Part shown: in pieces, positions 31,597-60,694 of the stretch
Layout: each line of letters begins with the position of its first letter
Position numbering within the stretch: position 1 is the first letter of the stretch
Assembly (NCBI GenBank): GCA_001600175.1
Contig: BCJC01000003.1
Span: forward strand, 1,240,001 to 1,304,000
From: Erythrobasidium yunnanense
Lineage: Eukaryota; Basidiomycota; Cystobasidiomycetes; Erythrobasidiales; Erythrobasidiaceae
Direction: 5' to 3'
DNA: 64,000 nucleotides
Translations under genes and position numbers: made by a program
The notes under the pieces: generated by a model
Seen by the model: the letters and a program-made list of their open reading frames with translations, nothing else
What the model was told of the DNA's origin: nothing
The model's database searches: none

Positions 31597-34500
31597 CTAC
31601 TGAGCCATCGCCACCTCATCCTCCCTCGGCCCATCATCGAAAGCAGCGAAGTTGAGATAACCGGACATGGCTTCGTCGTCTATATAGCTTCTGAGAATGG
31701 CGGAATCGAAGTAGTCCGGCACATACAGCTTGTCGGACGCAGTCGGGTCGAGCGGTAGTTTATGCATTGACAGATCGCCAAAGCCTACCTCGGGACTGTG
31801 TGGTAAAGTCAAAGGCACGCTTAATGCGTCAGTGACAGTGAAGGCTGGCGAGCGCTGAAGGCCAGAAGCCCCAAAGAGCTGTTGCTTTGGGGGTAGGGCA
31901 GCTGGCTGAGGTTGCGAATCTTCAGCGGGCGAGGGGATTGAGGGAGTAGCTTGCTCGTCATCGCCTGTTTGATAGACCAGATCTGGAACCGTACCCAGTG
32001 CCTCTGTCGAGAGATCACTTGCATTGCCCGCCGCGACGTCTGCTTCAGCTAGGTCTGGCTTAGTGTCTTGAAAGGGGAACGACATAGCCGAGAGATCATG
32101 ATGGTCATCGTGTTGCAGGGAAAGGTGCACACCAGTGCTTGTTGAGTCGATTTGGCTCGGAAGCGTAAATACCGGTTCGTCTGAATTGAAGGGTCTGGAT
32201 TGAACGAAACGCTGGTCAACAAACAGGCAAAATGGCGAATAAGTTGACTCACATGAGCTGGTCGCCCTCTATTCGCGGTATAGCTGAAGCAGCCGCAAAC
32301 AGCAAGCTTGCAGGACTCTTGCCCAGTTGTTCGCCCACTGTCGTCGCCATTCTCACTCTCGTCGAGGTAGATGCACCGACTGGGCGAGACGACGTCGTAG
32401 TCTGAGATTCTGAGCCGTCGCTCGTCGAGGCGTACCTATGTCTTGGAGGACTGCCGAGACGCGGAACAGCATTACTGACTTCAGAGGAGGTTGCCCTCGG
32501 TGCAGCTCGTGCCGCTACTACTGGAACATAGTCTGTCTCGGCGTCTATTGCTGCCCGTCTCGCCTCTGCTCTCTCGATTGCGGACATGCGTTCTCCAGAC
32601 GCGCTTGACATAATGCCATTGAATTTGAGGCGCACCCGCCTTCGAGATGTCATCTGATCTGAAGAAGGAGGTTTTGTGATGTTATGGTCGTTGGTATGCG
32701 CTGAAGTGGATGATCGCGATGTCGGAAGTGCGCTGGTAGCATGCTCCGCATGATTATCCGAGGACGAGTCTGATGCCGATTCCACATCCATCTGCCTTGC
32801 CTCTCTGGACCGTCCATTTCGGGATTGTGAGTTCGAGGTCTTGCCAAGCCTTTCGGCCTCCGTAGGTTTGCATCGAACCGTTTCTGGCCTGGGATAGGGA
32901 CCGCGGAGGCAGTTTGCACAATTGCAGACAGCCTTACAGACCGGGCATTGGAAGTCGAGCATGTGGATGCCTCCCACACTGCTTTGACTGTCCGTTGAAA
33001 GATGCGTACGAGGATCTACGGCACCCTGGAGTAGCGATGCATTGATAAGAGGTATATCGGCGTCCGAATCGTCAGACACAGGATGCTGAACGGAGGCCGA
33101 GCTACCTGAGCCTTGGCGTTCCAGCGTCGTCGACTTGGTCTTCTGCCTACGTGGTGGCTTCGCATGACTTCCCCAGCTCGTTGTCCCAGCCCTGGAGGTT
33201 TGCAGGTATAGAAGGTGTGCAGCGTACGTAGGATACGCATGGTACCTATCATACATGCATTTGGGGCACATGCCCCTTTCACAGCTGACACAGTGAAGAA
33301 TGCCACTTCGGTCATGGTAGACTTCGCATTGGTGACATAAGAGGCTTGAGCTAGCACTTCCAGCTGCCGTCTGAGACCGTGTATTCTTGATCGGATATCG
33401 AGCTTGATCATCGAGAGCATTCGGAGCGTCTCGAGACAGGCGCCGGGTGCCCGCTTGCGACAATGGTCTGGATCGATTGGCGGGAACCACTTTTCCCTTT
33501 CCTTTAGCAAGTGTCGATCGAGGACGCTGAGCTGGATTTGCCGGAAGTGCACTCTCCTGCCCATCGATATCCATCGATTCGTATATCGGCGCTGTAGGTT
33601 TCTGTTTTGGCGGTCGTCCCATAGGACCCGCTCGTCGAGTTGAAGCGGACTTCGGCCTGCTTGAGCTCTTCCCACGGCTAGGAGCAGCCTTTGAAAGTTG
33701 TTCTGAGTGCTGGTGCACTTTCCGGTGCCTAAGTGCCTGGTCCGAATCGCTGTAGTCTGAGTCCGCCGAGTTGTCCTTGATCTCATACTGCAGCATAGTG
33801 ATGTCGGGATCTTCTTCGTTTGCCTCTTCCGAGTCCGAAGGTGATCGAGTGCGAGACAGTCTGGGCAATTTTCTGCTACTTATAGCGTGACGAGCTTTTG
33901 AAGACGGCTGCAATTGATGCGTCTCCTCTTCCTCCGAATCTCCTACTACGTCTTCTTTAAGCGATGAACTTTTGCTTGCTAATCGTGCTTCTCCTGTTGC
34001 CCCTTCCTCTCCTTCGCTACTGTCAGAATCGCTAATGACGATAGCTTGGGTGGGTTGCTTAGTGACCGTCAAAGGCGATTTATGGGGTGTCTTCTTCTGG
34101 AGCTTGACTTTAGACGCTTCAGGAAAAGGTAGTTCGGGTGTGGCAGAGTATCGGGGACGCGAAACATCTGGACTTTCGCTCCCTCTTTCCCTGCCGTTCT
34201 TCATCTGCGGCATCCTGCTGACCGGTACACTGGCATCTACGTTTGCTGAAAGTGACTGCCTTCTTGAAGCGCCATTCTGGCTGTATTCACCATCCCCCTC
34301 TTGACTGTTTGCTGGTTCGGAGATACTCGAATTCGTTCGCACAGGGTTTTGCTGACGTGGAGCAGCCATGGAGTCGTCTCCAGTGAGATGGCTCAGAACA
34401 CAGATATTGTTGTTCGCTTGCTCCGAAGAGGCTGCCGATCGCTCATCTCCCTGAAGAATGCGGGCCGTGTCATCTCGTCCAGATGGGCTGTTCGTTCTGA

Positions 34501-34986
34501 GCTTCTTGTATACGTTCTCAGAGCTGCTAGGAGAGGTCGATTTTGTTGGATTAGAGCGCGTTGGCGTGCTTGCCCAAGAATGCGGTTCTGCTGTTGCGAC
34601 AAGCCCGGCAGCGTCAAAGGAGGATTCCTGATGTTTTCAGAAGTCAGTCAGTAGCATTATAACCTTTCTTGTAGCTAGCAAGAACGTACTCTGCTGCTGG
34701 CGCTGTCTGTCTCGTCTCCTGCATCGTGCTTTCGCTTGACGTGGTTCCGCTGACTCGCAAAGGCTGCCTCTTTCGCCTGCGTTCGCTCTTGTCGCTGTTT
34801 CTGTTGCTTCTGTGCTCTATCCTTTGCTCTAGTTTCTGCCTGGACCTTCTCGTATTCCCCAGGCCGCGATAGAGCAAAGACTCCAAGAAAGACAGATTTC
34901 CGCGGTTTGCGATGAGCCGTTTTGGCGTTGCTTGAGCTAGCAATGGAGGTCGTCGTCGTCGAGTTTACAGGGACTTCGTCGTCCAT
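31597..34986 (-). CDS. Large protein with CDCA7-type zinc finger (zf-4CXXC_R1)
   Basis: Three exons (34986-34690, 34627-32253, 32194-31597) give 1089 residues. The reading frame runs without a stop through the ATG at 34369, so the gene begins at 34986, not there. The zinc finger is split in two: LLCHQCEVYHDRSGILHCVS then C-x2-C and CPKCMYDRYHAYPTYAAHLL, and after about 95 residues FQCPVCKAVCNCANCLRGPY. This Cys spacing and the RY and CNC elements match the R1/CDCA7 domain. Animal CDCA7 recruits the HELLS remodeller and is linked to maintenance DNA methylation. The rest is low-complexity, charged, Ser-rich, with an SDSDSSEGEEG acidic block. A KPRKSVFLGVFALSRPGEYE motif opens the protein. A nuclear, chromatin-linked role is inferred from the domain only. 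Confidence 0.83.
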
Positions 34987-41889: not shown

Positions 41890-43827
41890 TCAAGCCACCA
41901 GGCTGCACCGGATCTGCATGTCCGCTTTCAATAGTAAATCCTTCATGAGGACAAGCGCATCCTTCTGTAGAGCCAACTCGCGTTGCTCCGCAGCGTACTC
42001 TTTTTGCAGCTCTGCCAATTTTGCGATAGCAAAGGCTTGAGCGAAGACCTGCTTTTGAGTCGCGACAGCCTGAGCCTGGGCGCGAACTTCTTCTTTCAGC
42101 TGCTGTGTTGATGCCTCTTGACATTTCCAAGAAGAGTGCTCGGCCTCCAGCTGCGCTAAGCGATTAGCAGAGCTGGCACCTTTCGCCAGCATAGCTCGAA
42201 GATCCTTCAGCTCGCGCTCCTGCTTGTCTACCGTAGCTTGCATAGCACAGATGCTGCCTTGCATCTCCGCTTCGTATAATATTCTCTCTTTCGCTGCTTG
42301 CTCAAGCGTCTCTTTTCGGACTGACTCCATTTCACTGAGTCGCAGGGACACCTGTTGCAACGGCTTCAGAGGCGTGAGGGCTACACAAGAGAGGTCTTCG
42401 TGCATTGCGATCGTAGAAGACTCCGCTGCCAGGTAGCGCGCAGGTGACTGATGTGAATCTGGGGCATTAATTGCGTCTAGAATGTCCCCGATGTCGGACG
42501 AAAGTTTCGGTTCTACGCGATGATCTTTTGAAACACGTTTGGAGGCAGGCTGCGAAGCTACTTTTGGCTGTAGGGGCGCAGGCGAGTGAAGGGTTTTACG
42601 TTGAAGGGATCGAGACGGAGGGAGGGGAAGACCGTCGTTGGTTAGAGACTTTGGTAATACAGAGTTGACACCTCTAGCAGAGACGCCCGTAATCGATGCG
42701 GTACTCGTTTTCACGGCTTGTCTCGGTTCCTGGACGGGCGTAGCTTTCTGGGTAGCTCTGCTCGGAGTATTGATGTTCTCAACATCATCATGATCTATAC
42801 TGATCCAGCTACCGTCTGCACGCCTATCTTTCCTATCCTGCCGGCTGACTGCAGATGTTAGGGGCGAAAGTGTCTCCTGAAGGTCCTGCATTGAGAGTGT
42901 AGTATTGGCGACTAGCACTTCCAGACCTGGCGATTCATCGTTCGCTGACACCATACCATGCTGAGCTCGGGCAGAGGACGTAGCAGGGCGAGGTGTGGCT
43001 TCCAAGCCTCGAATCGATTGCACACTCCCGAGCCTGCGGGCAGACATAGAGGCGACCGGAACGCGAGACCCTCTCTTGTTGGGCGAAGCGCTGAAAGACG
43101 CATTGCCAGTTGCAGCTGGAGACGTACTGGACGTAGTTCTGTTGCGCTGCGCGAGACTTGGTAGATCCCGATGGGCCGAGGAAATGCGCCTGCTTTGGGA
43201 GGCTGATATAGAAGAGATAGATGAAGGAGCAGTAAAGGATGCTGTACTGGTAGTCCTAGGCCTGGGCAGGCCGCCGACAGTAGGCAGCCCACTTCTTGTA
43301 CTCGCGCTAGAATTAGCGGTACTGGCATTCGAGATGGATGAATAGCTTGTCTGCTTGCGTAGAGTGCTTGCGGACTTCCCTGTCGCGTCGGGAGTAGCGG
43401 TCCCAGACTTGTTTACCAGAATCAGCGCCCGATACCACGCGCGATCAAGCGCTGCCCGACCTACTATAATCTGTCCCAGAGGCTGCTTAGCCTGCGTCGA
43501 CATCGCGTTGAAGTGTTCTGCAGGCGATCCAGCCAGAATTGTCGACGCCGGTCGTACTGCCAGCGTTCTCCCTGCTTTTGGCTTGACCGTATCGAGTAGG
43601 CCAGGCGATAGCAGCTCTTCGTCTTCTTCATCGTCGTCTGCAGCCTTGCGTGCTGCTTCCGTAGTACGCGCTGAATTCTGCGACGTTCTGTCCTTATCCC
43701 GTCGTCCCAAGAACCGCTTCATCCCGCTGAGAGCTCGCTGCCCCGTCGTCCCTCCATTCTTCTCTGCGCCTGAACTCTGGTCGCTCATCTGCGAGCTGAT
43801 ACTCGACGTTCTCGTCAAGGCGGGCAT
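41890..43827 (-). CDS. Intronless coiled-coil protein of unknown function
   Basis: A single exon encodes 645 residues. The N-terminus (SGMKRFLGRRDKDR) is basic, and residues up to about 480 are Ser/Thr/Ala-rich and probably disordered. Residues about 500-635 form a clear coiled coil with heptads, for example SEMESVRKETLEQAAKERIL and MQATVDKQERELKDLRAMLA, then a long Ala/Gln/Glu helix. There is no motor or membrane segment. The lack of introns is unusual in this window. The 26-base gap to the start of DPM2 on the other strand leaves almost no promoter. A cytoskeletal role would be a guess. Confidence 0.8.
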   Translation of the reverse strand: MPALTRTSSISSQMSDQSSGAEKNGGTTGQRALSGMKRFLGRRDKDRTSQNSARTTEAARKAADDDEEDEELLSPGLLDTVKPKAGRTLAVRPASTILAGSPAEHFNAMSTQAKQPLGQIIVGRAALDRAWYRALILVNKSGTATPDATGKSASTLRKQTSYSSISNASTANSSASTRSGLPTVGGLPRPRTTSTASFTAPSSISSISASQSRRISSAHRDLPSLAQRNRTTSSTSPAATGNASFSASPNKRGSRVPVASMSARRLGSVQSIRGLEATPRPATSSARAQHGMVSANDESPGLEVLVANTTLSMQDLQETLSPLTSAVSRQDRKDRRADGSWISIDHDDVENINTPSRATQKATPVQEPRQAVKTSTASITGVSARGVNSVLPKSLTNDGLPLPPSRSLQRKTLHSPAPLQPKVASQPASKRVSKDHRVEPKLSSDIGDILDAINAPDSHQSPARYLAAESSTIAMHEDLSCVALTPLKPLQQVSLRLSEMESVRKETLEQAAKERILYEAEMQGSICAMQATVDKQERELKDLRAMLAKGASSANRLAQLEAEHSSWKCQEASTQQLKEEVRAQAQAVATQKQVFAQAFAIAKLAELQKEYAAEQRELALQKDALVLMKDLLLKADMQIRCSLVA

Positions 43828-43853
43828 CGTTGCTTGCTCGAAGGCCAGACGAG

Positions 43854-44336
43854 ATGGGCGATGGTGATGCTCGACTCGGAGGTTCGAATGTCCATGTAAG
43901 GTCGCTGATTAGCCTAGACTAATGACTTCCTGTCCGCAAAACAGCTACTCTTCTCCTGCTCGTCCTCGCTGGCTTTGCTTACTACACTCTCTGGGCTCTT
44001 TTGACGGTGAATCAATCTCGATTCAGATATAGTGCGGCTTTCCCGAGCTTCTGCTAACATTCTCTTCTCCATCCACCCTCGCTCTCTACTCCTCTTCCCT
44101 TGTTTCCCCTTTATCTTCGCTGGTCTCGCTAGCCTTTCATCCCGGAGTCTGCTCCATTTCTGGCTGCTTTCCCTCCACGCCTCTGGGCCATACGAATACC
44201 TATACTCCTACTCATCACGGGCCTGTCTGCTGCAGGCTTCTTGACGGGCATACTTTGCATCCAAGAATGGCGTGCGCGGATCAGCAAAGAAAGAGTGCAT
44301 TCGAGTGCGAAAGTGGTGTCGCATTCTGCCGGGTAG
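43854..44336 (+). CDS. DPM2: Dolichol-phosphate mannose synthase regulatory subunit DPM2
   Basis: DPM2 is a small ER membrane protein that stabilises the DPM1 catalytic subunit, which makes the mannose donor for N-glycans, O-mannose and GPI anchors. Exons 43854-43881 (28 bases), 43945-44006 and 44133-44336 encode 97 residues, near the family size of 84-100. Two membrane segments are seen: LLLLVLAGFAYYTLWALLTP and AIRIPILLLITGLSAAGFL. The diagnostic block PFIPESAPFLAAFPPRLWAI joins them. A Lys/Arg-rich tail follows. The first exon is fixed by phase: only the donor after CTCGGAG brings ATG into frame. Presence of DPM2 shows the separate-subunit (human and fission yeast) form of the synthase. 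Confidence 0.88.
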
Positions 44337-52760: not shown

Positions 52761-54940
52761 ATGGACAGAGCTGGCATAAACGGTGAGCTGAGAACAGCGA
52801 GGAAACTACACAACAATGGCTGAAACGACATCGGCCATGGCCAGTCCTGCCTCTGGTGCACGCCGCCAGGCTCCAGTACGGCCTGCGAACGAGCGACTAT
52901 GCCCGATACCATCGACACGCTACACGGCGTATCAGTACACTACACAAAGGTCTAAGGAGGAAGAGCAACGTCAAGAAGGTCGTATATACCGCAGAAGCTG
53001 TTCAAAAGGACGAAAGATTGCTCGAACTCCTCGTCTGGGAAGCCGAGAGAGCTTGGGCTGAAGGACTGCGTACACGAGAAGAACTGGCAGCTCTGGAAAG
53101 AGATCCCAACAACAAAGCAGCACTGGCCAGGAAGCGACATCGATCCGCCAAAAGACTGGCAAGGGCGAGCCAGCATGCCCAGAAATTCGCACAACTCCTA
53201 CAAACCTTACAAAGCTCCTTCCCTGTCAGCAATACTCTTCAAGCACATATCTATTCGCTATACATGCAGGGTTATCACGACTTTGTGCTGGCCTCGGCAT
53301 CCGCTTCTTCCTCTTCATCAGTCGCGCAAAAGGGCGTGGCACATCTATCCACAGCCTACGTCCTTCTAGAATCATTCGCAAAGGACACGCAGAGGTCGAC
53401 CGACGAAGCTCTGGCGTACGAGCTCCTCGATGAGCTGGAACCTATGATCCGCTTCTGCGCCTACACAGCAGAAACACAGTCACAGGGCTCCGTATCCGAG
53501 CTCGCAAGAGCTACGGGTATGCCTGTTGTCACCGGAGACGACACGTATGCTCGATTATTGAACGAGTATCGACAAGAGCAGGAGAAAGTAGCCAAGAAGT
53601 TAGGCAAGAAGGGAGATCAACAGGGAGAGACTGTCAAGGCCATCAAATGGCGCGATATCGACATACCAATCCGAAGCGCCGAGCTTTCTTCGGCTCTGAG
53701 CAGAGTGCAGACTGCCCTGCAGAACCTCCAGGGCAGCAGCTCGAAGGCTACAAAGCGCTCTAGAAAGACTACAATGGACCCAACTACATCGTCTTCTGGT
53801 CACGCTGCCCAGATAGCAGGCGGTGAAAATGCAATGAACGACTACGATCGCGCTCTGGCGACATTGAGCGAGTCGGCTGAGAGGTCCAAGAAGCTGGTCG
53901 ATGACAACGCTGTCGCCCTTTCCAAAGCACAATCTACTCGCTTCGAATCAGCAACAAGGCCACTCTCACTAGCAAACTCCTACATCACCTTCCAGCTCCT
54001 TTCGATACGGTTGAGGCGGGACGAAGCTCTGTTTGCGTCAGTCATGGCCAAGCTCTCAGCCCGGGAAGCAGGGAAATCGACTCCTTCTAAGCGTGCATCT
54101 GGTCGAAGCGGTCAAATAACGACTGTAACAGCCCGTAGACGGGCCAAAACGTTTCCCGTCCTGATCAAGCTCCTTGAAAGTATTTTGCAAAACTTGGAGC
54201 AGCTACGTGAACTTGACATCGTTGAAGATGACTCGGAAGATCTAGCTGGCATTGTTGATGGTAAAATCGCTTTCGACAAAGCTCAAAGGTATGTATGCAA
54301 ATTCATGGCAATCAAATGTTGGATGCTGATTTCGCTCCTTTCTAGGTGTAACTACCTTGCGCAGACATACGCGCTCCTCGAGAAATACCCTGAAGCCCTC
54401 ACCCTCTTCCAACGCGCATCTCTATACCTGCGGCAAGTACATTCTCACGATCCTGGTGCTTCCGACACACCGATCGATGCCAGTATCAAACACCTGCTTG
54501 TCGCCGCGACGGCCGAGGCAGACTTCCGGGAAAGACTGGCGCAAGCTGAAGATAGAGTGCGAAAGGACTGGTTCATCTACCAGTACAGCCAAGACGCGAA
54601 GGCAAAAGAAGGGTTGGACAGTGCGATCAGCAGAATGGACATCGATGAGCCTGTCTCTTTGCCAAAGAAGAGCAAGAAGGCTGGTCCTCTGTTCTTCGAT
54701 GTTGCCTTCAACTACGTTGCCGGTATTGATATCGATATACTAGGACGGGTTGCTTCAGGCGAGGAGACATCCGAAATAACAGAGCCGCAAGCAAGCGGCA
54801 TACAGAGCGTGGCAGCTGCGGTCGCGACGAAGGTCGAGGAGGCGATGGAAGTGGTGACCAACAATACACCAGCTGGTCCAGAGACCCCTTCCAAGACAGG
54901 CGGCGGAATTTGGGGCTTTTTCGGCAGAGGCAAGAAGTAG
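52761..54940 (+). CDS. SRP68: Signal recognition particle subunit SRP68
   Basis: SRP68 pairs with SRP72 and binds the SRP RNA for cotranslational targeting to the ER. Exons 52761-52782 (22 bases), 52845-54288 and 54346-54940 encode 686 residues. The RNA-binding N-terminal block is clear: VLPLVHAARLQYGLRTSDYA then RYHRHATRRISTL and LRRKSNV. Later parts include KWRDIDIPIRSAELSSALSR, PLSLANSYITFQLLSIRLRR and CNYLAQTYALLEKYPEALTL, the helical repeats toward the SRP72 binding end. The C-terminus ends GGIWGFFGRGKK. The start is set by the tiny first exon; without it no ATG precedes the conserved block in frame. An apparent in-frame ATG at 52816 belongs to another frame inside the first intron. Confidence 0.93.
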
Positions 54941-55118
54941 AAGGGCTACATGATCCAGCATCGACCCGTTGAAGCTTTTCTTGTACACTCATCCCAGCTG
55001 GTACTACAACAGACTGCTCCAAGACAAGAACTGCCTTTACTGCCTATATAGGATATGAAACTAATGGTATAGTACTTGTTGCTGCTGCATAACCTGAAGA
55101 AAACGTAATCCCCTCATC

Positions 55119-58100
55119 TTACTCTTGCTTATCAAGGACAATTATTGTAGAGCTGCTTGCATCTCTACTCTGCAGGTGTTTCAGTATCATGCGGGCCAAC
55201 CGAGCTTTGCTGCCGACTTCGCCTCTAGCGCTCAGCTTCTGGGCATCTAGTTCGAAGGTGTCGCCTGCTATCTGAGCACTGATGTGAGTGGGTGCTTCTT
55301 GATTCTCACTACCCTTGCTGGTGATTGTGACCGTGTAATTCGGTTCCGGTCTGTTCGTGCTTTGACAATAAGCTGTGCGGCCGACGGCGTGAGCTTTGCA
55401 AATGGCAATGTTGAGACAGTCTTATTTACCTGCTAGGTGAGCTACCCAGTCTGCCTGCTCTCGCTTGGGCTTTCCTTGCGCTTGTGGGGCTAGCTCTGGC
55501 GCCTCATCAAGCTTCCTGGCCAGCTCGCTAGCAGGTGCCAAGCGTTTGATGAAGTAGGCCTGCAGCTTCTTCACAACGCCGGCCTCGAGCGCTACTCGCG
55601 CAACAGCATCCTTGGCTGCAGCCTTGCCGAGGTAGGTCGTGTCAACCTTGAAAACCATAGCCGGATCGGTCGGAATAGTCAAGATAGCGCCATATTCGGC
55701 TTAAGTGGGCACGTCAGTATGCATATATCCATTGTGAGGGGTGATGACTTACACCCTTGCCCCTTCTTCAGTAGCTCATATTTTGGCCTGTCCTCTGCTT
55801 CTGCTCCCAGTAGCTGTTGACATACTTGTTGCAGATAGCTAACAGCCTGTGCGTGCGGATCAGGCGACTTGCTCTGATGGGCGACTTGTACGGAATGTGC
55901 TGTCGATAGGCTCGTTCCTTCGGAGGCATCTGCCTTCCCCAGATCCTCCATAATGCGAACAATGCCGCCTTCGAGTGCTTTAGTTGCGGCCGTTTCGAAA
56001 GCCATCTTGGACGTAGGCGATGCAAAGGGCACTTGAAAGGTATGCCGTGTGTCTTCGTCCACTACAAGTATGACAGCACCGCCAAAGCGGCCGCTCAATG
56101 CATCTTTGCGAATGTCGAAGACCAGATGCTTAGCCTTCTTGCTTCCGAGAATGCTATCAGCACGCTGATTCAGAAAGCGAAGGAGGGGTTGATCGGCGAG
56201 GCCCTCAGAGAAATCGTGTTGTGATGCCCAGCTCGGCAAATTTGATACCGGTACTGCTCCTGGAGTATTTGACGAATATGATGCTCCATGAGGAGTCCGC
56301 CGCTCTTCCGCCCTATCAACGTTCGCAACCGTCCTGTCCGCACTGTAAGGTGGAGGAGATATGATTTGTCGATCTAGCTCCGTTGCTGTGATATCTATGA
56401 TGGGCACGGGCCGCTTGTTAGAGTAGGTGGAGTATGATGTAGCTGGGAGGGGATCAGCAACTGCTTGGAGTCGCGGTAGTTCTTCGTCTCCATGCACATC
56501 TGGAAATCCCCGCGGGGTCGCCCGAATCAGCTGAGGTGGATCTCGCGAATTTAACTTCTGCTGTGCGATCAGATCGCTGAATTTGACAAGGTCGCCCATC
56601 TCCTGGCCGTATTGACCGTCCTTAGCTTGCTTAGCCAACTCGATTAAGCCTTGCTCGATGGCTGCAATAGCGACTGCCGTTTTTGCTGCCTTCTTCGTCG
56701 GAAAGTCGTACTTGACAGTATAGCGCCGAACCAGATGTGGTGTCAAAGTTGCGATCAAGATGCAAGAAAAACGCTGGCCTGGTATGTCCTTCAGTGACAT
56801 GCATGCTTGAGTGATGAGCGGGCTTACCGAAAGTTCGGCCAGGTGCTAATGATGGCCCGATGTTCTGAAACTCGTACACTAGCGCTTCGGATCGTCCTGT
56901 ATATGTTTGTATGCAGCTGTTCAGGTAGCCTATAGGACTGCGAGGGATTTAGCTGAGTCGTGATTCCAGAGCAGTGGAAACTGACTTTGGGATTTGATGC
57001 GGATCTACTTCCGACATCCCGCTAGGCCACGACTGAGAGCCGGATCCGCTAGATCCCGAAGCCTGACTTCCGCTGCCACTGAAGCCGCTGAGTGCGGCGC
57101 GAGAGGCTCTGAAGAGCCTTCTATGTGCTTCCAAAGTCTCTTTGATTCTCGACTTAACGGCTACCCTGCATGCGCCCTCTTTTGCTTCTCGCTTAGTGCG
57201 GAACCCTGGCGAGATTTCGTACTTGTGGACATTGTCGGATGATATGCTTATGATTATCTTTGCGCCATATAACTCGCCTTGGTAGAAAATTCAGATAGAT
57301 CGGGGAAGCATGGCATATTGAGGCTCACCTCCAGCACTCATCGCCTTCGTATATTCGCATTCCAAAGCTTTGGGATTGCGTGTAACGTCCTGTATCATCT
57401 GTGCTAGCACTCCTGCTGTATTTTCTTCGTCTACTGGGTCATGCTCCTCGATTCTAGAAGGAATGGGTAAGCCCATCTGCTTGCATACTTTGGTCGTAGT
57501 AGAATTGTGTAGTTTTAGCAATGTCACAATGCCCTCTTTCAATGCCTCGCCAGTCACGGCTTCTTTTGCTAATTTGGAAGATACAGCAGGCTCCAAAGGT
57601 CCGTAAGATGTTATCACGTCAGGCGTAATGCGGATGGTGAGGCGGCATCGGTAGAGCGGATAATTGGCGTATGCTAGTCCACGAATTAGTTAAAGGATGT
57701 GTCTCAAGTGGATCGACAAACCTGATTCGAGCGTGTCATAGTCGTAAGTCAGTGCTTGCGTCGGAGTCTCGATGCAGTATTTCTGTACCGCAAGGTTGAG
57801 GGCTGATATAGGATTTTCTGCCGAATTCATAGTTTCTCTTTCGGCATAGCTGATCTCCGTAGCCTCGTTATAACGTGCATCGCGCTTGGGCAAAGTATCT
57901 TGATGAAATCGGGGCGCAGCAGAGGTTCCCACTCGGTCTAGGGCTGCCATACTGGAACTGGCTTGCTCTAATACGCCCATAGAAAGGGCTAGCTCCGAGG
58001 CTGCACGCTTTGCTTCGCGCTTGGACAGGTACACGGCATTGGGGGGAGTAATGTAAGAGCGGTGGCTTTCGGGCGGAAAGTGTAAAGTGAGTTTGCAGGA

Positions 58101-58498
58101 GTAAGACCGTGCTAGATTAGAAGAGAGCTCAGCAATCCAGTAACAACCGACTTTGAACATAGCCGTACTCGCTGGATTTCGTGAACATAGATAGATGGGC
58201 GGCTGAGGAGACACCTTCTTCCAGAACTTGCGAACATACAATGTTGGGCTAGTGGATAGAGCGATGGTCAGCTTTTCGTTTCTGGAAGAGCTCGACGCGA
58301 TCTGAACCAAACGCACTTCGACAATCGTTCGTCGACATCGTCGGCAGTATCAAGCAGCTCTGACTCGTCATCTGAATCATCGCTGGTGCTGCTGAGGCGT
58401 TCTTGTCTGGATCCAAACGTGTGACCTGGAAGACCATCGACGCGAAAGCTTTCCTCGCCGCCATCGTCGGCAAGGATGGCAGCAGCTTCTGCTGCCAT
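55119..58498 (-). CDS. Protein with seven tandem dsRNA-binding-domain-like modules
   Basis: Eight exons (58498-58317, 58248-57722, 57673-57329, 57277-56986, about 56937-56829, 56778-55753, 55699-55430, 55372-55119) encode 1001 residues. I see seven diverged copies of one module: a start like N-P-x-x-x-L-(N/x), a Y/F strand region, and a helix with the dsRBD-type S/T-K-(K/R)-x-A-K-x-x-(V/A)-A-x-x-A pattern. Helices: LSKREAKRAASELALSMGVL (about 140), SSKLAKEAVTGEALKEGIV, RTKREAKEGACRVAVKSR, FPTKKAAKTAVAIAAIEQGL, SKMAFETAATKALEGGIV, LGKAAAKDAVARVALEAGVV and GEVGSKARLARMILKHL. An acidic N-terminus precedes them. RNA binding is inferred; the full protein is not a family I recognise. Confidence 0.8.
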
Positions 58499-58830: not shown

Positions 58831-60694
58831 TTATGATCCCGAATTGTCTGCGCATGAAAAGGATCCAGTTGTTCCTGCATTGAGTGCATTCCTAATGTCT
58901 ATAACGCTAGCGTACGTTCCAGCGATGAGTAAAAAGACTCCGATAACCCCCACAGCCAGTGCCCATGCAGCTTTAGCTTTCCAGAGAGTGCTACGAGTGT
59001 CTCTCCAGTGATCAAAGTACCACATCATGGACCTACAGATCGTACGCAAGAAGAGAAAGGGTAAATGGATGGTGTGAAGAAGAGAAGGCAATAGTCAGCA
59101 AGCTCTCGAGGCCAAACTACCAGAAGGTCAACGTGAATTACTCACATGATCACCATGCATGTCAACGTTCCCACAAGAGCACCGAACAAGCCTAGAAGCG
59201 ATCCAAAGAACGGTACGGCGAGCGCGATGATGGTAGCGATTGTGCTTTGTGCGACCACAATGGATCTAGAGCAGACATCAAGATCGGAACAGAGCGAGCT
59301 GGCCAGAATGAAGCACATACATCCAAGTAATCCAATGCGTAGGTGTGCTTTGTGAGAGATGCTTCGTTCCTGTTGCGGCGGTCCCAAGTCAGCGTTCATG
59401 CTGAGCGGACCATGCCAGAAGCCATACCTTTCAGGACTCGGACAAGCACATACTTTGCCGGTGTATGAGTGTTTAAGGTTGCACCGACCAGCAAACCTGG
59501 GATAGCTATACCGTAACAGACTTTCTTGAGTAGAGGTCCGGCAGATCCGAGGGCAGGACTAGAGACGTATTGTCCAGCGTAGTGGTATACGACACCGCCG
59601 ATGACCAGGTAGACAAGCGTGACCAAGCCTTGACAGGTGAATAGCGCCTTGGCGTAGTCTTTCTTGGGATCTCGCATCTCGGAAACCACATTGAAGAAGG
59701 TTGCTGGACGTAAAGCTCAGCACAGACAGACTTATGCATGGAGTAAAACTTACCTGTACCAGCGTAACTGAAGACCACATTGGAAACCGCGGATATGGCT
59801 TCGAGGAATGTCGCATCGCCGATGACTTTGATGTCTTTGTTCCAAGGCCCGGTAGAAGGCGCAGCGGACGGCCTGTCTTGTTGACTGACTGCGATTGCGA
59901 GCGTGAGGACAGCTCCGAGGATGGAAGCTAGGCCGATCCAAGCCAGGAAAGCAACCTTGCCGAGAGTTCGAATAGAAGATAGTCCAGCCACGATGACTGC
60001 GCCCACCACTACGAAGACGACAGTGCAGGTTGCATGCTCGGATATCGCATTGAGAGCGATGGAGAAACTGTAAATAGGTTGATTCAGTCCGAATTCCCGT
60101 CTGGATGTTGTTTCGCTAACCTGAGCAAGGAGGCACCAGCGATACCGGTGACCAACAGCTGGCGAACAATTGAGTCAGCGTATGCTTGTCACGCAGCTAT
60201 TAGGATGCCTCACCCAGTAGCCAAAGCCAAAGAGCTCACGTCCAACGGGCCCGAAGAGCATTTGACCGACATCCGCAAGCGTGTAGACGTGAGGATGTCT
60301 GATTTTGAACATTCCGACGACATAGTCTGACCATGTTGTCATGATGGCTATGACAAGAATGACGATCACACCCGGTACGATGCCTAGGGTGTGGAAGACT
60401 CCGGGCTGAGTAGGCGTTGGATCAGCTTCATTTTGACAGCAAGCACGCGAAATGTCCTACAATACTGAGAACTCCCAAGCCGATTTGCAGTTTGACCATC
60501 AGAACACTCGCCCTCATCCATCCTAGATTTCGGTAGTTTGGCCCTTTGCCGCTGATGTCGCCAAACACTTCGTCCCGCACGATAGGTCCATCTGCATAGC
60601 CTTCGCTGACAGTTCCAGTCACATCTTCAAACTGCTGTTTTGTGTCGAGACCCTCTAGATCGCTCGTTCTCTTCATATCCGTATTTCGGGACAT
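58831..60694 (-). CDS. Amino acid transporter, AAAP family (Mtr-like)
   Basis: This polytopic protein of the Aa_trans family (PF01490) resembles the fungal neutral/aromatic permease Mtr. Several exons carry about ten or eleven hydrophobic segments. Readable blocks are KGPNYRNLGWMRASVLMVKL with QIGLGVLSI, PGVFHTLGIVPGVIVIL, HPHVYTLADVGQMLFGPVGR, VVFSYAGTG, VVSEMRDPKKDYAKALFTCQ, HTPAKYVLVRVL, and FFGSLLGLFGALVGTLTCMV near the end. The MRDPKKDYAKA loop after the Y-A-G-T helix is the hallmark of this branch. The N-terminus is acidic and cytosolic, a usual site of ubiquitin control, and the tail is short. Start at 60694 is the first ATG. Substrate is inferred from family only. Confidence 0.85.

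Follow-up and report, generated by a model that had tools for sequence, protein, structure and literature searches.

This locus raises the question of what is made by a gene that repeats a module resembling the double-stranded RNA-binding domain (dsRBD) and has no recognisable enzyme part. To our knowledge, proteins with the dsRBD fold carry one to about five copies. With six copies plus one and no enzyme, this array would show unusually clearly how non-catalytic RNA scaffolds are put together. The gene lies on the minus strand of the window (the whole stretch of 64,000 nucleotides of Erythrobasidium yunnanense DNA that was analysed), from an ATG at 58498 to a TAA ending at 55119, as a preliminary description of this DNA had placed it. 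The gene is nuclear, its short introns and its neighbours are of fungal type, and codon usage favours its coding frame across 55119–58498.

Nine exons (58498–58317, 58248–58169, 58111–57722, 57673–57329, 57277–56986, 56937–56828, 56778–55753, 55699–55430 and 55372–55119) encode a protein of 982 amino acids. The 1001 residues described earlier correspond to this protein plus the 19 codons of the second intron (58168–58112), which is 57 nt long, in frame and free of stop codons. The longer protein fits if this intron is kept, as it may be, and is replaced by the shorter one in the nine-exon model. The structure was checked by a dynamic-programming gene model that is blind to the modules, with hand-set splice scores and codons from neighbouring open reading frames, in eight settings. 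Seven of the eight introns have the same donor and acceptor in every setting. Intron 2 is uncertain; its acceptor as modelled is chosen in a single setting, and in the seven others a longer intron runs from the same donor with an extra intron ahead of it. At low intron penalty (four settings) introns are added in other places and the stop comes later, at 55037, and the exact nine-exon, 982-residue model is recovered in one setting of the eight. Apart from the doubt over intron 2 the gene structure is established. An alternative acceptor for intron 5, giving 975 amino acids, was rejected because it deletes the N-P start of module 4 and is picked in none of the eight settings.

The protein consists of six homologous copies (M1–M6) and one divergent C-terminal segment (M7). 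Each of the seven was scored against a profile built from the remaining six, with 2000 shuffles per module. From the N-terminus, M1 (57954–58330, aa 57–140) scores 21.4 bits, M2 (57504–57827, aa 183–274) 24.5, M3 (57114–57434, aa 298–387) 37.6, M4 (56627–57005, aa 424–517) 41.3, M5 (55937–56212, aa 656–747, in a single exon) 22.0 and M6 (55542–55867, aa 771–861) 37.5, and no shuffle reaches any of these values. The corresponding score of M7 (55149–55475, aa 884–973) is 0.6 bits, equalled or beaten by 268 of the 2000. All seven lie on the minus strand. Since M1–M6 score 21–41 bits and M7 0.6, the protein is six copies and a divergent segment, and the seven copies of one repeat first described are reduced to six. 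That the protein is nearly all repeats was also an overstatement, M1–M6 covering 543 of the 982 residues (55%), or 633 (64%) with M7 added. In a six-frame scan of the window, with 1014 stop-to-stop segments of at least 40 amino acids, six exceed the inclusion threshold, every one an exon of this gene.

M7 appears to be a different and more ordinary dsRBD-like segment lying outside the repeat. By eye it has a canonical-looking A-P-T-H loop, a basic second helix and R-L-A-R in the place of the lysine motif. Aligned with the dsRBDs of RNase III using hhalign it scores 22.1, reached by none of 200 column shuffles. Searched alone against Pfam it matches only the unrelated DUF1510 (0.11). A structure predicted from exon 9 as a single sequence, with half of helix 1 (the first) missing, has three short strands and a helix with a pLDDT of 53.8. 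The Foldseek matches of this model are mostly of SH3 or Hfq type, with one dsRBD by title (ADAR2, at rank 27) among the 50 matches listed. Model and list were set aside as evidence either way.

The introns are disposed in relation to the repeat. Phase-2 introns split the asparagine codon of the N-P motif in M1 (intron 1, 58249–58316) and in M4 (intron 5, 56938–56985). Phase-1 introns lie in the β1–β2 loop of M2 (intron 3, 57674–57721), M3 (intron 4, 57278–57328), M4 (intron 6, 56779–56827) and M6 (intron 7, 55700–55752), and in that of M1 (intron 2) in the nine-exon model. In that model they fall 8, 20, 8, 8 and 5 nt ahead of the β2 aromatic codon in M1, M2, M3, M4 and M6, respectively. Those of M2, M3, M4 and M6 are identical in all eight module-blind settings, and that of M1 is found in one. 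When eight introns were placed at random in 2,000,000 trials, ignoring phase and using a stretch of 5–24 nt chosen after the data had been seen, five modules were struck in none and four in 87. Intron 8 (55373–55429, phase 1) lies within the presumed helix 1 of M7, placed by eye, and is not equivalent to the others. Because the repeats share their sequence and the positions and phases of their introns match, the array probably grew by repeated duplication of an intron-bearing unit. The matching positions may also allow the order of duplication to be read.

The fold of M5 was predicted with AlphaFold2 without templates, using one alignment (A7); A3–A6 and A8 misplaced half-modules and were set aside. 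The model (pLDDT 83.5, pTM 0.71) has the order helix–strand–strand–strand–helix–helix. Such a prediction had been proposed earlier as a check, and it gives the α-β-β-β-α arrangement of a dsRBD for M5 only, the M7 model reaching just pLDDT 53.8. Among the best 50 of 748 Foldseek matches, 24 chains are of dsRBD type, including 11 of the first 12; 19 were labelled from their titles, and five (two DHX29 chains, an ancestral Dicer, DCL3 and a Loqs-PB complex) we take to be of this type. The list is headed by DHX29 (probability 1.00, TM 0.59), which recurs at rank 12 (0.99, TM 0.64), and none of the matches listed has an E-value better than 0.05. M5 thus has a predicted dsRBD-type fold, and we infer the same fold for the other copies. 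Together with the module profiles, this prediction bears out the original view of tandem, diverged modules with signs of a dsRBD-type fold.

KKxAK at the start of helix 2 and GPxH in the β1–β2 loop are given as features of dsRBDs in an excerpt of PMC11309768. By eye, K-(K/R)-x-A-K is kept in M1 (K-R-E-A-K), M3 (K-R-E-A-K) and M4 (K-K-A-A-K), partial in M2 (S-K-L-A-K) and M6, and broken in M5 (S-K-M-A-F). More loosely, helix 2 resembles K-x-x-A-K in M1, M3, M4 and M6, and M2 has the shorter K-x-A-K. GPxH is absent from all six repeats on inspection of their sequences. The isoelectric points of M1, M3 and M4 are basic (9.9, 8.6 and 9.3), that of M2 is acidic (5.2) and that of M5 neutral (6.9), with 6.5 for the whole protein. 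Copies 5 and 7 had both been said to lack the lysine pair; by eye, the motif is broken in M5, and M7 is the copy with a canonical-looking loop and a basic helix 2.

A repeated fold of RNA-binding type and the lack of a recognisable enzyme part suggest an RNA-handling scaffold. The reading preferred here, with a probability of about 0.55, is that six tandem, diverged DUF283-like modules of dsRBD fold and a dsRBD-like end form a non-catalytic, multivalent scaffold for RNA and protein. M1, M3, M4 and M7, with their basic helix 2, would hold structured RNA weakly and additively. M2, M5 and perhaps M6 would be protein-contact modules, like Staufen dsRBD5 or the DUF283 of Dicer, and RNA and partners would thereby be kept together. 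RNA binding, partners and location of the protein are those that we infer. According to an excerpt of PMC4820750 the DUF283 of human and Arabidopsis Dicers does not bind dsRNA, which counts against the RNA scaffold.

It is unlikely that the scaffold is purely one of proteins, the dsRBD-fold modules having lost RNA binding and serving to dimerise or to recruit partners. Plant DUF283–DRB pairs are a parallel. The missing GPxH loops agree with this, as do the acidic M2 and neutral M5 with their incomplete or broken lysine motifs, and complexes of Staufen dsRBD5 with Miranda and of DRB7.2 with DRB4 are among the M5 Foldseek matches listed. An excerpt of PMC4600727 describes Staufen dsRBD5 as not binding dsRNA and contacting Miranda by its sheet. 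However, M1, M3 and M4 are basic with the lysine motif kept, and M7 looks canonical by eye, which counts against this reading.

The sequence relationships of the modules are weak. The Dicer-dimerisation family of Pfam (Dicer_dimer, PF03368, corresponding to DUF283) matches the whole protein at aa 778–842, in the region of M6, with an E-value of 1.6e-4 and 22.0 bits against a gathering cut-off of 23.7, and M6 alone at 0.017. The canonical family (dsrm, PF00035) matches the whole protein at 0.0019 and 19.2 bits against a cut-off of 23, best over aa 894–922, inside M7. Neither cut-off is reached by the protein or by any of the seven segments, and with GPxH absent from M1–M6 canonical dsRBD membership is not upheld. 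Up to an E-value of 10, in searches where the HMMER filters discard most matches above about 0.1, no single segment matches dsrm; M2, M4 and M5 match no Pfam family; and no catalytic family is found, nor helicase, PAZ or RNase III families, in agreement with the first description. A match to Arm-DNA-bind_4 (E-value 0.0084 with the whole protein), over a 17-residue stretch around the second helix of M3, was judged to be chance. Of two consensus sequences, one matches Dicer_dimer (0.0089) and the other no Pfam family; one consensus and M7 give a single, irrelevant NCBIfam match (thiB, 0.14).

When the seven segments together were made into a profile and compared with the PDB, 14 sequences came up at E ≤ 10, of which 13 are dsRBD proteins or Dicer (best 0.011). 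The second is the ancestral Dicer helicase construct AncD1D2, matched by profile positions 6–79 of 90 over residues 551–627, which we take to be DUF283. The six-repeat profile finds 19 sequences, 15 of them dsRBD proteins or Dicer (three over helix 2 alone), the best being the dsRBD of DUS2 at 0.011. The E-values are weak overall (0.011–7.4), and Dicer is outscored by the dsRBDs of HYL1 with the first profile and of DUS2 with the second. Single-sequence searches of the PDB with the whole protein, M7 and the HMM consensus found no dsRBD; the first two gave no match at all, and the consensus matched trigger factor (0.04) and a regulatory subunit of PI3K (0.94), both unrelated. Using hhalign with gappy columns dropped, none of 200 column shuffles reaches the scores of the M1–M6 profile and of M7 against 31 RNase III dsRBDs. 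An earlier run of this shuffle control was set aside; its maxima were 135 and 137, and for each query 12 of the 200 shuffles equalled or exceeded the real score. In a second control of that earlier analysis the dsRBD set scores 22.9 (M1–M6) and 24.7 (M7), against 11.4 and 10.3 for the RNase III catalytic domain. Against RNase III dsRBDs taken one by one, M2, M3, M4 and M5 are matched by many shuffles (1074, 140, 187 and 134 of 2000). By sequence, the closest family would be DUF283 as much as dsrm.

These relationships bear on a third explanation, in which the modules attach to single strands and accelerate their pairing, as the DUF283 of human Dicer does, with avidity raised by the number of copies. 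ssRNA binding and annealing by DUF283 are reported in an excerpt of PMC4820750, and Dicer_dimer as best Pfam family and the rank of AncD1D2 point the same way; yet with the cut-off missed, one consensus without a family and two dsRBDs scoring above Dicer, an RNA chaperone or annealer is quite improbable. That the repeat is an independent α-β-β-β-α unit with a superficial likeness to the dsRBD would suit the weak E-values of Pfam, PDB profiles and Foldseek, but is very improbable given the specific families found (13 of 14 and 15 of 19 PDB sequences), the M5 fold predicted without templates and the lysine patterns of helix 2. Beyond the mixed scaffold itself, it is a tentative and rather doubtful proposal that this is an undescribed fungal family, a DUF283-like array of six without catalysis, derived from an intron-bearing unit and capped by a dsRBD of canonical type, acting as a multivalent RNA annealer or scaffold and possibly replacing the RNAi machinery or standing beside it. 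Literature searches by phrase for such a family give weak negative evidence. Contigs of prokaryotes gave 21 pattern matches, none confirmed as an orthologue, and viral contigs none, which says little because these collections covered prokaryotes and viruses. Should orthologues occur in fungi with and without Dicer, the life of DUF283-like modules outside RNAi would become testable.

Among known systems, likeness to DUF283 includes an aromatic-x-C-x-L in M1, M2 and M4 and the S/T-K-x-x-A-K type of helix 2, besides the Pfam and AncD1D2 matches. The differences are the six copies, a score just below cut-off and the absence of the setting between helicase and PAZ of a Dicer among Pfam matches up to E 10. 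The canonical dsRBD is resembled in the predicted M5 fold, the helix-2 lysine motif of M1, M3 and M4, and the P-x-H loop and basic helix 2 of M7 (by eye); unlike it, M1–M6 have no GPxH and, by eye, a longer β2–β3 segment, and score below cut-off. Staufen is similar in architecture only, having several tandem dsRBDs and no catalytic domain, with the fold here predicted for M5 alone; its copy number lies within one to about five according to an excerpt of PMC6477676. This protein differs in having six modules of one lineage and a different seventh, and no Staufen-specific sequence relationship was found beyond weak matches at the level of the fold, among those to many dsRBDs (one chain at E 1.4 with the seven-segment profile, none with the six-repeat profile). 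The dsRBD of DUS2, the best PDB match of the repeats, is one domain of a tRNA-dihydrouridine synthase, whereas no synthase family is found in this protein by Pfam. DHX29, presumably matched through its dsRBD-like part, gives the best Foldseek match of M5, with a sequence identity of 18%; it is a helicase, whereas no helicase family is found in the present protein by Pfam.

The protein can be divided into seven segments, M1 to M7, numbered from the N terminus. Each was scored, together with 2000 shuffles of itself, against a profile built from the other six. M1 to M6 score 21.4, 24.5, 37.6, 41.3, 22.0 and 37.5 bits respectively, and none of the 2000 shuffles of any of them is as high. M7 scores 0.6 bits, equalled or exceeded by 268 of 2000 shuffles. 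Based upon these scores, M1 to M6 are at the sequence level six diverged copies of one repeat (pairwise identity 11–28%), and M7 is a different segment; the seven copies of one repeat proposed in the preliminary description are thus reduced to six. The protein, described there as nearly all repeats, is composed mostly of modules but not nearly entirely, since the six cover 543 of its 982 residues, and all seven cover 633. The array is arranged as 4 + 3, split between M4 and M5 by a module-free linker of 138 residues (aa 518–655, in exon 7, 56213–56626). No further copy of the repeat exceeds the inclusion threshold in the rest of the window, read in all six frames (1014 segments of at least 40 aa). 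We regard this modular architecture as very probable.

The structure of M5, the sole single-exon module, was predicted from an alignment of its paralogues. The model is ordered helix–strand–strand–strand–helix–helix, with a mean pLDDT of 83.5 and a pTM of 0.71. In a Foldseek comparison with the PDB no E-value falls below 0.05; among the best 50 of 748 matches 24 chains are of the dsRNA-binding domain (dsRBD) type (19 classed from title and five from the known make-up of the proteins), including 11 of the first 12. The dsRBD-type matches listed include DHX29, DHX9, DRB4/DRB7.2, MLE, DCL1, DRB3, HYL1, Staufen dsRBD5, DUS2, an ancestral Dicer and others.

Searched against PDB sequences (E ≤ 10), the seven-segment profile finds 14 matches, of which 13 are dsRBD proteins or Dicer (best E = 0.011); these 13 chains, classed by molecule name, presumably contain dsRBDs. 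The six-repeat profile finds 19, of which 15 are dsRBD proteins or Dicer (best E = 0.011), three of these covering helix 2 alone; the remaining four are an antibody and two designed proteins, all three unrelated, plus an unclassified viral chain. Compared with 31 bacterial RNase III dsRBDs, the M1–M6 profile scores above 200/200 column shuffles, with just 16 helix-2 columns aligned, as does M7 (200/200). Taken singly, M1, M6 and M7 are reached by 3, 16 and 3 of 2000 shuffles respectively, and M2, M3, M4 and M5 are not better than nearly all of theirs (1074, 140, 187 and 134 of 2000 as high).

In Pfam the whole protein matches best to Dicer_dimer, the Dicer dimerisation domain DUF283 (E = 1.6e-4; 22.0 bits, cut-off 23.7; best stretch in M6), followed by dsrm (19.2 bits, cut-off 23; best stretch in M7). 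Searched alone, M6 matches Dicer_dimer (0.017), M1 the dsRNA-binding family DSRM_2 (0.17), M3 Arm-DNA-bind_4 (0.084) and M7 just DUF1510 (0.11); M2, M4 and M5 have no match. With the majority consensus of M1–M6 as query, the hits are Dicer_dimer at 0.0089 over 65 of 89 profile positions, dsrm at 0.28 over 63 of 66, and Arm-DNA-bind_4 at 0.11; their HMM consensus has no Pfam match. Among six shuffles, one hit an unrelated family at 0.19. The dsRBD-like identity originally suggested is thus supported as a fold type, by the predicted M5 fold and the profile matches, but not at the Pfam cut-offs of dsrm or Dicer_dimer. Several weak but concordant signs point to a dsRBD-type fold for M1–M6, and we file the modules as a diverged variant with DUF283 and dsRBD nearest.

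The gene lies on the minus strand, with its ATG at 58498 and its TAA ending at 55119, and contains eight short introns (48–68 nt each). Codon usage favours the coding frame (0.05 versus −0.28 and −0.29 in the other two). The coordinates 55119–58498 reported earlier are confirmed; the product modelled here is 982 rather than 1001 residues long, and the difference of 19 fits intron 2 (58168–58112, 57 nt, in M1). Since this is in frame and stop-free it could be retained, so that both proteins are conceivable. A module-blind gene model, using codon usage from neighbouring ORFs and hand-set splice scores, was run at eight settings. Introns 1 and 3–8 are returned with identical donor and acceptor in all eight. 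The donor of intron 2 is picked in all eight and the acceptor of the 982-aa model in one; seven settings have a longer intron 2 and an additional intron ahead of it, which would cut into M1. By this modelling the form of intron 2 is uncertain. The exact 982-aa model is recovered at one of the eight settings, and a low intron penalty (four of eight) gives extra introns elsewhere and shifts the stop later, to 55037.

In the 982-aa model a phase-1 intron interrupts the β1–β2 loop of each of M1, M2, M3, M4 and M6, located 8, 20, 8, 8 and 5 nt respectively ahead of the aligned β2 aromatic codon. M5 has no intron. M1 and M4 share a phase-2 intron that falls inside the N-P motif, splitting its Asn codon. 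When eight introns were placed at random (2 000 000 trials, phase ignored), none of the trials reached five modules and 87 reached four, the target being a stretch 5–24 nt before the aromatic codon that was defined after inspection of the data. The initial choice of splice sites was made by eye and with knowledge of the modules; the module-blind model lifts this concern for M2, M3, M4 and M6 (8/8 settings), and it stands for M1, whose phase-1 intron (intron 2) is reproduced in 1/8. The simplest reading is that the array arose by tandem duplication of a unit already bearing these introns.

According to a section of PMC11309768, dsRNA binding is set by three regions: a helix-1 Glu, a GPxH motif in the β1–β2 loop and KKxAK at helix 2. 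GPxH is not found in the sequences of M1–M6. K-(K/R)-x-A-K is present in M1, M3 and M4, all three basic, and is partial or broken in M2, M5 and M6; in M7, with positions assigned by eye, the loop reads A-P-T-H and helix 2 is basic. Excerpts of PMC4820750 report that neither the human nor the Arabidopsis DUF283 binds dsRNA, but that the human domain does bind single strands, which it anneals. Staufen dsRBD5 also lacks dsRNA binding and contacts Miranda via its sheet (a passage of PMC4600727), and in Staufen2 weak tandem dsRBDs bind stably together (a passage of PMC6477676). With these precedents, the uneven motifs lead us to favour a mixed multivalent scaffold, in which some modules would bind RNA and others proteins; by analogy this is the most likely role, with a probability of about 0.45.

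A phrase search of the literature found no mention of six or seven dsRBDs or dsRBMs, and a broader one with fungal terms found no fungal multi-dsRBD protein among the titles listed. As a sign of novelty this silence is weak, because most subscription journals lie outside the coverage. A search for relatives in two collections, of prokaryotes and viruses, found nothing.

ARAGORN finds no tRNA in the 64-kb window (1–64000), and no Rfam family matches there at the gathering cut-off. The neighbouring genes encode SRP68, phosphatidylserine decarboxylase, a FYVE protein, CorA, a calcineurin-like serine-threonine phosphatase and BING4; together with the short introns they indicate no more than a eukaryote of fungal type. 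Two long open frames on the minus strand, of 795 aa (32249–34636) and 672 aa (41890–43908), have no Pfam match at E 0.001, and by eye both contain many low-complexity stretches. Upstream lies a minus-strand gene (about 58831–60174) that by eye resembles a multi-pass amino-acid transporter interrupted by introns; the one piece scanned (59142–59558) has no Pfam match at E 0.001. The SRP68 gene (stop-to-stop frame 52787–54940, plus strand, Pfam SRP68 7.7e-59) is convergent with the module gene, their stop codons being 178 bases apart.
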